Notes under the pieces: generated by a model
Database searches by the model: none
What the model saw: only the letters and a program-made list of their open reading frames with translations
Told to the model about the DNA's origin: nothing
Position numbers and translations under genes: made by a program
From: Streptomyces griseoviridis
Lineage (GTDB): Bacteria > Actinomycetota > Actinomycetes > Streptomycetales > Streptomycetaceae
NCBI RefSeq assembly: GCF_005222485.1
Contig: NZ_CP029078.1
Coordinates: 1,888,001-1,952,000 of the forward strand
Length of the DNA stretch: 64,000 bases
Reading direction: 5' to 3'
Part shown: positions 27,302-58,870 of the stretch, in pieces
Position numbering within the stretch: the stretch's first letter is position 1
How the letters are laid out: each line of letters opens with the position of its first letter

Positions 27302-27323
27302 TGTCAGTGGTGTGCGGCATGAT
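27302..27323 (+). promoter_or_regulatory. PafBC-type DNA-damage promoter, exonuclease
   Basis: TGTCAGTG (27302-27309), 8 bp, then CATGAT (27318-27323), matching the RecA-independent damage promoter TTGTCRGTG-N8-TAnnnT apart from C for T at the first -10 base. Seven nt later comes GTG (27331), placing the transcription start on the start codon. Confidence 0.75.
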
Positions 27324-27330
27324 GCGGGAC

Positions 27331-28251
27331 GTGACCGGACGATTGATGCTCCTCGACACCGCCTCGCTCTACTTCCGCGCCTACTTCGGCGTCCCGGAGT
27401 CCGTGAAGGCCCCCGACGGCACCCCCGTGAACGCCGTGCGCGGACTCCTCGAATTCATCGACCGCCTGGTCAAGGACCACCGGCCGGACTCCCTCGTGGC
27501 CTGCATGGACGCCGACTGGCGCCCCCAGTGGCGGGTCGACCTGATCCCCTCCTACAAGGCGCACCGGGTCGCCGAGGAACAGCCGTCGGGCCCGGACACC
27601 GAGGAGGTCCCCGACACCCTCTCCCCGCAGGTCCCGATCATCGAGTCGGTCCTCGACGCGCTGGGCATCGCCCGGGTGGGCGTCGCCGCCTACGAGGCCG
27701 ACGACGTGATCGGCACCTTCACCGCGCGGGCCACGGGACCGGTCGACATCGTCACCGGCGACCGCGACCTCTACCAGCTGGTCGACGACGCCCGCGGGGT
27801 ACGGGTCCTGTATCCCCTCAAGGGCGTCGGCAGCCTCCAGCTCACCGACGAGTCGACCCTGCGCGAGAAGTACGGCGTGGACGGCCGCGGCTACGCGGCC
27901 CTCGCGACCCTCCGCGGCGACCCCAGCGACGGCCTGCCCGGCGTCCCCGGCATCGGCGAGAAGACGGCCGCGAAACTGCTCGCCGAGTTCGGTGACCTGG
28001 CCGGGATCATCGCCGCGATCGACGACCCGAAGGCGAAGCTGACACCGTCGCAGCGCAAGCGCCTCGACGAGTCCCGCCCCTACCTCGCGGTGGCGCCGAA
28101 GGTCGTCAAGGTCGCCGACGACGTCCCGCTCCCGGACGTCGACCCGGCGCTCCCGCACACCCCGCGCGACCCGGCGGCGGTGGCGGAGCTGGGCACCCGC
28201 TGGGGCCTGGGCGGCTCACTGCACCGCCTGCTCACCACCCTCGACGCGTAG
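27331..28251 (+). CDS. 5'-3' exonuclease (FEN/PIN-like)
   Basis: A 306-residue nuclease related to the N-terminal domain of DNA polymerase I. Metal-binding Asp residues appear in MLLDTASLYFRAYF, MDADWRPQWR, AYEADDVIGTF and VTGDRDLYQLV. A helix-hairpin-helix DNA-binding segment follows (GLPGVPGIGEKTAAKLLAEFG). It would remove RNA primers or flaps in replication and repair. ATGs at 27319 and 27322 lie inside or at the edge of the -10 of the damage-type promoter, so GTG 27331 (TGRLMLLDT) is the better start, on a leaderless mRNA. Confidence 0.93.
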   Translation: MTGRLMLLDTASLYFRAYFGVPESVKAPDGTPVNAVRGLLEFIDRLVKDHRPDSLVACMDADWRPQWRVDLIPSYKAHRVAEEQPSGPDTEEVPDTLSPQVPIIESVLDALGIARVGVAAYEADDVIGTFTARATGPVDIVTGDRDLYQLVDDARGVRVLYPLKGVGSLQLTDESTLREKYGVDGRGYAALATLRGDPSDGLPGVPGIGEKTAAKLLAEFGDLAGIIAAIDDPKAKLTPSQRKRLDESRPYLAVAPKVVKVADDVPLPDVDPALPHTPRDPAAVAELGTRWGLGGSLHRLLTTLDA

Positions 28252-28414
28252 CAGCGGCGCGGTCGAAGCGGAGGGGCGGCACGGACCACACGCAGGGGCG
28301 GCACGTTCGTCGCGGAGCGACGCAGTCGGCACGGAGCGTGTCTCCCCAGCCCCCGGCGGGGGCGCGTGCCTCCCCCGCCCCGGCAAGGGCGCGCGCCTCC
28401 CCCGCTCCCGACCG

Positions 28415-28429
28415 GAGAATGGCATTCTC
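28415..28429. promoter_or_regulatory. 15-bp palindrome of unknown binder
   Basis: GAGAATGGCATTCTC is a 7-1-7 inverted repeat about 90 bp upstream of the iron box. It resembles Fur/Zur-type operators in form, but it does not match the Streptomyces Zur consensus I know. Confidence 0.4.
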
Positions 28430-56825: not shown

Positions 56826-56877
56826 GTGACCAGCCTACCGGCCTTTGCGGGGGGCGCCGACCACGGGCGGGGGCGGT

Positions 56878-58692
56878 TCAGGAGGGGCGGGCCATGGCTT
56901 TGACGAAGGCGCGTTCGACGTCGGCGGCGGAGAGGACTCCGTAGATCGCGCCGGTTTCCTCGACGACGAGGTACTCGGTGGCGGGGGTGGCGCGGAGGGC
57001 GTCGAGGAGGTCTTCGCCGGCGAGTTCGGCGGAGACGCGCATGCCGTCGGTGAGGTCCTGGGCGAGGCCGCTGACGGCGACCCAGGGGCGGCGGTGTTCG
57101 GGGACGCCGACGATGGCGGCTTCGCGGACGAGGGAGAGGGGGGTGCCGTCGGGGTCGACGACGACGAGGGCGCGGGCGCCTGCGGCGTTGGCGCGGCGGA
57201 GTGCTTCGGAGAGGGGGGTGTCGGTCTCGACGGGGACGGCGCGGCGGGTGAGGTTGCGGGCGCGCAGTTCGGGGAGGTGTTCGCGCAGGCGGGCCATGCG
57301 GAGGCTGTTGCCCGCGCCGGTCCAGATGATGGCGGCGAGGATCGCGGCGAGCAGGGCGTCGAAGACGGTGTCCATGCCGACGTTGTCGACGGCGGTGGAG
57401 CCGAGGGCGCCGGACTGGGTGAGCAGGGGGAGGCCGATGAGGACGGTGACGGCGAGGGCGCGGCCGACCCAGGCGGCGGCGATGGTGCCGCTCATGGGTT
57501 TGCCGGTGATCTTCCAGACGACGGCGCGGAGCATGCGTCCGCCGTCGAGGGGGAGGCCGGGCAGGAGGTTGAAGGCGGCGACGATGAGGTTGGAGATCAT
57601 CAGTCCTGCGAGCAGGACACCGGGGACGGTGCCGGGTCGGACGGCAAGGAGGCCGAGGTAGAAGACGCCGGAGAGGACGAGTGAGAGGAGGGGTCCGACG
57701 AAGGCGAGGACGAATTCGCGGCCGGGGGTCTCGGCTTCTTTCTCGATCTCGGAGACGCCGCCGAAGAACTGGAGCTGGATGCGGCGGACCGGGAGTTTGA
57801 AGCGGAGGGCGGCGACGGTGTGGGCGAGTTCGTGGATGAGGACGGATCCGTAGAAGGCGACCGCGAAGAAGAGGGAGACCAGGTAGCGGGCGGCGCCGAG
57901 TTCGGGCAGGACGCGTTCGAGCTGGCCGCCGAAGACCCAGGTGATGAGGGCGGCGACGAGGAACCAGCTGGGGGCTACGTAGACGGGTACGCCGAAGGGT
58001 CGTCCCATGAGGAGCCCGCCTCGGGGCTCGGGGGGTTTGCGCGGCGGGCGCTTGCCGCCACCGCCGCCGCTTCCGTCACCGCCGGTGCCGCTGCCTCCGC
58101 CGTTGCCTGAGTGGGCGAGGGTGCGGTGTTCCTCGTGGGTGGGCTCGGGGGTGTGGTGCGGCCGGGGGGCGGCGGGCCGGGCGGGGTCGCTGCCCTCGGG
58201 CGGGGTGGGGCCGGGGGTGCCCGTGCCGCTGGAGCCGGCATCCGTGCCGAGGGGCCCGGGGGTGCCCGTGCCGCTGAAGCCCGGGGTGCCCGTGCCCGTG
58301 GGCGTGGAGGGGCTCGGGGTGGGCGGTGGGGTCGTGCCCTCGGGGGCCGGGGTGTCGTCGGCGCGGTCGGTGGGTGCCGGGGGCTCGGGGGTGGGGGTGG
58401 TCGTCGGCTGGACGCGCGGCTCGGGGTCGGTGTGGGGGGTGGGTGGGTGCGGGCCGTTGCCCATCGCGGCGTCTCCCTTGGCTTCGTCGTCCGGCGCCTG
58501 GGGGCGCGGGGCGTCCGTGGGGTGGTCGTCGGTGGTGCCCGGGGTCTGGGGCCGGGTGGCCGACTCGTCGGTGTCGGACCGCGGCTGCCGGGCCCCGCCG
58601 GTCTCGCCGGTCTCGCCGGTCTCGCCGGTCTCGCCGGTCTCGCCGGTCTCGCCGGTCTCGCCGGTCTCGCCGGTCTCGCCGGTCTCGTCCAC
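56878..58692 (-). CDS. site-2 protease (M50) with tandem CBS domains
   Basis: A protein of about 604 residues. The N-terminal 240 residues are disordered, beginning with ten ETG repeats and rich in Pro, Thr and Gly. The rhomboid-like M50 core follows: [17 protein letters not shown], the zinc motif HELAH in [15 protein letters not shown], and the second ligand motif [14 protein letters not shown]. Two CBS domains (about the last 130 residues: [52 protein letters not shown]) probably regulate by nucleotide binding. GTG 58692 is favoured by AAGGGG 5 nt upstream; GTG 58797 is the alternative. Confidence 0.9.
58597..58686 (-). repeat. 10 copies of a 9-bp repeat coding Glu-Thr-Gly
   Basis: gccggtctc on the plus strand is repeated ten times without a mismatch from 58597 to 58686. 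Read on the minus strand it encodes (ETG)10 at the very N-terminus of the site-2 protease. The exactness points to recent slippage expansion. Confidence 0.97.
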
Positions 58693-58848
58693 GGTCTCCC
58701 CTTGGTCCCCTCGTTCGAAGCGGTCTTCCACGCCGGGTGGGCGGAAGGGTCTGATGTCGATGGTATGCGGCCGTCGTGGCGCGTTTCGCCCCGGCACCCC
58801 CTGTGTTCCCCGGGTCGTCGCACGGTTCGGTGGCTGGGGTGGGGTGAC

Positions 58849-58870
58849 TGTCAGTGGCGGGCCGTATGGT
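58849..58870 (+). promoter_or_regulatory. PafBC-type DNA-damage promoter, RecB-family gene
   Basis: TGTCAGTG (58849-58856), 8 bp, then TATGGT (58865-58870), then 7 nt to the ATG at 58878. It shares the 14-mer GTGACTGTCAGTGG with the exonuclease promoter at 27297-27310. Confidence 0.8.

Follow-up and report, generated by a model that had tools for sequence, protein, structure and literature searches.

In mycobacteria, RecA-independent DNA-damage (RecA-NDp) promoters are linked to the PafBC pair, of which PafB reads the -26 motif, PafC holds sigma-A domain 4, and the pair is activated by single-stranded DNA (PMC11804915). Promoters of the RecA-NDp type have also been reported for two Streptomyces genes, recA of S. 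rimosus and SCO6735 of S. coelicolor (PMC5087735, PMC9411070). SCO6735 is UV-inducible in S. coelicolor (PMC5087735), which we count as support for the reading proposed below, and a RecA/LexA-independent damage response in Streptomyces has been left open in print (PMC9380542). Here we describe three promoters in a 64,000-nucleotide (nt) stretch of the Streptomyces griseoviridis chromosome (positions 1,888,001-1,952,000 of the forward strand of NZ_CP029078.1, assembly GCF_005222485.1), hereafter the window. They are members of a genome-wide promoter class of about 109 near-identical sites. We consider it probable that they are RecA-NDp/PafBC-type promoters within a regulon that extends over the chromosome, is rich in repair and replication genes, and has about half of its promoters firing onto the start codon. 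This reading is based on the motif, its spacing, number and conservation, the position of the start codons, the gene content, and a PafBC pair that retains its presumed DNA-reading residues; from these we infer PafBC as the activator, induction by damage, and 5' ends at the start codons.

All three sites carry an exact -26-type box, TGTCAGTG, followed after 8 nt by a -10 hexamer. On the forward strand, the box at 27302..27309 and the hexamer CATGAT at 27318..27323, with C and not T at its first position, precede a gene for a 5'-3' exonuclease (27331..28251; PF02739, PF01367). Its homologue-fitting start, GTG 27331, lies 7 nt past the hexamer, and its transcript is predicted to be leaderless. 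On the reverse strand, the box at 38584..38591 (with an additional T at 38592) and the hexamer TACGCT at 38570..38575 precede a helY-type DEAD/DSHCT helicase gene (35752..38559), whose homologue-fitting start, ATG 38559, is found 10 nt past the hexamer; here a short leader of about 3-4 nt is predicted. The third site, again on the forward strand, combines the box at 58849..58856 with the hexamer TATGGT at 58865..58870, before a RecB-like PD-(D/E)XK nuclease gene (58878..59804; PF12705) with a homologue-fitting start at ATG 58878, 7 nt past the hexamer and likewise predicted to be leaderless. The three products were recognised by domain scan. The TAnnnT form of the hexamer is thus present at helY and the RecB-like nuclease, while CATGAT of the exonuclease is a form common to other sites of this genome. 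An earlier note on the window had located three such sites before these genes, all with the same spacer, and had identified the motif as the RecA-independent damage promoter. Positions and spacers were confirmed, and the motif equals the published LexA/RecA-independent consensus tTGTCRgtg-8 nt-TannnT (PMC5656591). The GTG of the octamer (window 27307 and 58854) is in frame with two of the three genes, those for the exonuclease and the nuclease, so the mechanical list of open reading frames (ORFs) begins both inside the promoter, and gene callers may do likewise.

Genome-wide counts were made in the single contig of this genome (8,962,736 bases), with the reversed pattern as control. A search of the kind that the earlier note had proposed gave 63 TGTCRGTG-N8-TAnnnT sites, with start codons concentrated 6-7 nt past the hexamer, and no match to the reversed pattern. 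The relaxed form TGTCAGTG-N8-nAnnnT occurs 95 times (49 with TAnnnT; the first base differs in the other 46, which include the exonuclease site) against 3 for its reversed pattern; the 63 sites and these 46 make up the 109 distinct sites of the class. When the spacer was left free, TGTCAGTG-N{4,12}-TAnnnT yielded 49 matches (reversed control 2) and all 49 had a spacer of 8, so the common spacer is not coincidental. The idea that so short a motif simply matched GC-rich DNA by chance can draw on the octamer, which alone is unremarkable in the window: it occurs 3 times where 1.37 are expected, and 19 of 100 shuffles contain at least as many. However, TGTCAGTG-N8-TAnnnT occurs twice in the window against 0.01 expected, a count that no shuffle out of 100 attained. 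Chance is refuted for the entire class by the reversed counts (0 versus 63 and 3 versus 95), the single spacer, the conservation and the start-codon phasing, which leaves it a negligible probability. Matches to the motif with at most two mismatches number 26 in the window and 8.1 in shuffles, roughly a threefold difference.

The earlier note had seen in the three sites a local PafBC regulon. That part could not be upheld, since the 109 sites are spread over the 8.96 Mb chromosome and the excess within the window is weak: 3 of 109 sites against 0.78 expected (P 0.044, post hoc), or 2 of the 63 TAnnnT sites against 0.45 (P 0.075). Local clustering was accordingly rejected as evidence for a local regulon, and the sites are better described as a genome-wide class. 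A LexA/SOS box was also considered as an explanation of the class and rejected, because SOS-like boxes (CGAAC-N4-GTTCG with at most one mismatch, between -120 and +100) are no more frequent at the sites than in a control stretch (5/108 versus 4/108, the exonuclease site lying outside this set). At one locus of this genome (L043), two sites stand back to back on opposite strands about 40 bp apart (5412909-5412930 on the minus and 5412970-5412991 on the plus strand), so that transcription should start in both directions from a single stretch; comparable pairs with wider spacing were observed at L046 and L087.

The motif was also counted in 296 genomes of the phylum, among them 9 Streptomyces, and in 197 genomes of the class, comprising 16 Streptomyces and 181 others. 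In the phylum sample, TGTCAGTG-N8-TAnnnT gave 13-57 matches in the Streptomyces genomes, with none for the reversed pattern, and 0-6 in the other genomes. In the 16 Streptomyces genomes of the class sample, TGTCRGTG-N8-TAnnnT was found 24-72 times each (reversed 0-3) and TGTCRGTG-N8-CAnnAT 11-31 times (reversed 0-2). Of the TGTCGGTG...CAnnAT matches listed from other genomes, some recur in unrelated genomes and resemble coding sequence, and the class-wide counts of this form are therefore not relied on. Three genomes of a single genus (G424, G444 and G462; family f86, genus g229) hold 118, 198 and 63 TGTCRGTG-N8-TAnnnT sites, with a start codon 6-7 nt past the hexamer in 14, 17 and 12 of them; the surplus perhaps reflects a repeated element that carries the motif.

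Next we consider the position of the start codon (ATG or GTG), measured as the number of nt between hexamer and codon; 45 of the 46 sites with another first base were fetched for these statistics. In the S. griseoviridis genome, a start codon lies 6-7 nt past the hexamer at 35 of the 63 TAnnnT sites and at 23 of the 45 others, whereas other downstream 2-nt windows hold one at an average of 0.054 and 0.053 of the sites, the largest single window reaching 10 and 6 sites. A start that opens a frame of 60 codons or more occurs 4-11 nt past the hexamer at 35/63 and 28/45 sites. The pattern extends to the 16 Streptomyces genomes (384 of 797 TAnnnT sites, where chance, measured in the S. griseoviridis genome only, would give about 5%) and to the 181 non-Streptomyces genomes of the class, where the count is 931 of 2082 (888 of 1703 once the three genomes with inflated counts are left out). 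The earlier note had expected 5' ends about 7 nt after the hexamers, and the start codons fit predicted 5' ends some 6-7 nt past them. Since about half of the promoters place a start codon at the predicted 5' end, the damage transcripts would be largely leaderless.

Streptomyces PafBC-type promoters thus look largely leaderless, a prediction that is new here: neither a genome-wide Streptomyces set nor a leaderless design was found described in the titles and abstract openings of the open-access literature on PafBC (from 2018 on for PafBC in Streptomyces) and RecA-NDp, a body outside which most subscription papers lie. Genome-wide, nearly one transcript in four is leaderless in mycobacteria (PMC4633059), while the shares for S. 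coelicolor (PMC4895711) and S. lividans (PMC8079986) are 21% and 17%; the comparison is indicative because the published ends were mapped and the present ones are predicted. The mean distance from hexamer to start in S. lividans is 6.3 nt (PMC8079986). A counter-example is Rv1955, where the RecA-NDp transcript begins well upstream of the codon (PMC2897130). Because a start at 6-7 nt is seen in Streptomyces and in the other genomes of the class alike, PafBC-type promoters across Actinomycetes may be built for leaderless mRNA, which would couple one activator to one mode of translation and supply repair proteins without a Shine-Dalgarno leader. We put this broader proposal forward tentatively, at somewhat short of even odds.

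Conservation of the three promoters was followed in 30 Streptomyces loci per gene, our own included (genomes with a match were 30, 31 and 30 out of 31). The exact TGTCRGTG-N8-nAnnnT arrangement was retained at 26 of 30 loci of the RecB-like nuclease, 23 of 30 of the exonuclease and 17 of 30 of helY, and at these exact sites an in-frame start was always present 4-11 nt past the hexamer. At the nuclease, the hexamer of the 26 exact loci is TATGGT, TAAGGT or TAGGGT. The four remaining nuclease loci comprise two at contig ends with the upstream region unread (L167 and L168), one partial match (L192) and one degenerate site (L190). Of the three boxes, that of helY is conserved least. A TAnnnT in the corresponding position is kept at 29 of the 30 helY loci, and the thirtieth (L158) has a TAnnnT in a separate comparison. 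Among the 23 exact exonuclease loci, the hexamer is CATGAT in 18 and CATCAT in 5. We also compared the best 80 named relatives of the exonuclease (78 Streptomyces and 2 labelled 'Actinobacteria bacterium'). The box is exact at 54 of these loci, all with CATGAT; at the other 26, counted by eye, it has one mismatch at 16, two at 3, and is unrecognisable at 7.

These comparisons bear on two other explanations. One is that helY and the exonuclease depend mainly on housekeeping promoters that are constitutive and have a conserved -10, the box being optional and evolutionarily labile. At 12 or 13 of the 30 helY loci the box has indeed decayed but the hexamer is kept, and CATGAT stands at 80 of 80 named exonuclease loci with the box exact at only 54. 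On the other hand, the exact box with its spacer of 8 is present at most loci of both genes, and both genes have it exact in the window. We regard constitutive control as unlikely, though at roughly one chance in four it is the alternative to be taken most seriously. The other explanation holds that the conserved CATGAT before the exonuclease is no -10 element but a start codon, read as ATGATG in the frame of GTG 27331; the window's ATG 27319 and ATG 27322 both share that frame. Yet at 8 of the 30 loci the GTG lies 6 nt past the hexamer and the ATG is out of frame, and 5 loci have CATCAT, which contains no ATG. CATGAT is therefore not a conserved start codon, and we give this explanation very little credence.

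The 46 sites whose hexamer does not begin with T, mostly of the CAnnnT form, were initially suspected to be noise. This suspicion was dropped and the sites were retained because they share the start-codon phasing (23/45 at 6-7 nt), include replication and repair genes, and differ in their own way at three positions. Specifically, 45 of these sites compared with the 63 TAnnnT sites have T at -15 in 47% versus 10%, G at -14 in 67% versus 37%, and A at -8 in 58% versus 6%. These biases fit an extended -10 that would compensate for the absent first T. Nor need the group be exotic, since T occupies the first place in only 63.8% of the -10 hexamers of leaderless S. lividans transcripts (PMC8079986).

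The genes downstream of 92 of the 109 sites (59/63 TAnnnT sites and 33/46 others) were scanned, using our own ORF rule and taking in a second gene at a few sites. Families of replication, repair and recombination account for 31 of the 92 genes (21/59 and 10/33), a count made without a random-gene control set. Such genes typically make up a few percent of a genome. Downstream of the TAnnnT sites are UvrB, Ogt, RadA-like, RarA/MgsA, AlkZ-like, DnaX, exonuclease VII, two UvrD-family helicases, RecA, exonuclease III, DinG/YoaA-like, HhH-GPD, RuvC, UvrA, RecQ, DnaE, RecD2-like, UDG, HelY and the window nuclease. The sites with another first base precede the window exonuclease, LigA, a gyrase/topoisomerase A subunit, Lhr, a Y-family polymerase, PolA, a second family-A polymerase, the delta and delta' subunits, and DnaN. 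One additional site of the class has an SSB gene farther downstream. No macrodomain was found among the scanned downstream genes, and no search aimed at an orthologue of SCO6735 was made. At L024 and L092, the sites precede genes of the SUKH family (SUKH-4 and SUKH-1), which is named for immunity proteins and for which we know of no link to DNA repair. At L044, the site lies 55 nt before a gene for a protein with sigma-70 regions 2 and 4, possibly a second tier of the response. A pentapeptide-repeat protein begins 6 nt past the site at L081, and the gyrase-type gene of L094 belongs to the same set; gyrase is a known target of some pentapeptide proteins.

The presumed activator is encoded in the window itself, as the earlier note had stated. 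On the reverse strand are pafC (40769..41827; HTH_PafC PF19187, WYL and WCX), which matches PafC of 7p5x, pafB (41846..42799; WYL and WCX), the presumed reader of the -26 box, and the Pup ligase gene pafA (44501..45862; TIGR03686, above the curated cut-off). PafB was assigned by domain scan and by matches to sequences of known structure, being a full-length match to PafB of 7p5x, 9fnd and 6sj9. Its R46 and R50 take the alignment positions of R44 and R48 in Arthrobacter PafBC (6sj9), recognition-helix residues described as strictly conserved and possibly DNA-reading (PMC6789036). An activator other than PafBC, for example ClgR or another Streptomyces WYL protein, has some grounds: ClgR is reported to recognise the mycobacterial P1/RecA-NDp region (PMC5656591), and this genome has five PafB matches at E <= 0.001, that is, PafB and four more. 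Still, the arginines of PafB are conserved, PafC has its helix-turn-helix domain, and the motif is that of mycobacterial PafBC with the same spacer. We therefore rate another activator as improbable, below constitutive control.

Several observations weigh against the three sites being PafBC-type promoters of a repair-rich regulon. In the S. venezuelae LexA study, an initial search suggested that the PafBC motif of mycobacteria is not conserved (PMC9380542). Of the 92 scanned genes, 61 were not recognised as belonging to repair or replication. A degraded box is seen at 13 of 30 helY and 7 of 30 exonuclease loci, some of the latter having no recognisable site, and at 26 of the 80 named exonuclease loci it is degraded while the hexamer stays. 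Correlating the number of motifs with the presence of PafB across the class failed: PafB relatives occur in 187 of 197 genomes and in 169 of the 173 good ones, and because they are nearly universal their presence or absence cannot tie the motif to PafBC. Moreover, strong PafB relatives but no motif match were found in two genomes (G303 and G450).

If the PafBC reading holds, DNA damage would load the PafBC heterodimer with single-stranded DNA, and PafB of the loaded pair would read the TGTCAGTG box. Housekeeping RNA polymerase would then start from the -10 hexamer exactly 8 bp beyond the box, with the first transcribed base some 6-7 nt past the hexamer. About half of the promoters would fire directly onto a start codon, giving largely leaderless damage transcripts. 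The roughly 109 sites of this genome, with one spacing rule, many of them before repair genes, and three well-placed test genes bear on the question of a RecA/LexA-independent response, and the surplus of start codons where transcripts are predicted to begin offers a testable link from DNA damage to leaderless translation.

These promoters are thus a known kind, very well supported in Streptomyces, with an unexpected, predicted leaderless design and a PafBC control that we infer. The S. venezuelae LexA/SOS regulon is likewise a DNA-damage regulon in Streptomyces, but its box differs (PMC9380542). The RecA-NDp promoters of Streptomyces recA and SCO6735 are of the same type and from the same genus; they concern single genes, whereas here the set is genome-wide. 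The mycobacterial RecA-NDp/PafBC promoters share the octamer, the 8-nt spacer and the TAnnnT hexamer (PMC5656591), as well as the repair genes and the pafABC locus. In contrast to them, the Streptomyces set uses mainly TGTCAGTG (49 of the 63 TAnnnT sites in this genome) instead of both R variants, and has in addition a second -10 group (nAnnnT, mostly CAnnnT) and a predicted leaderless placement.

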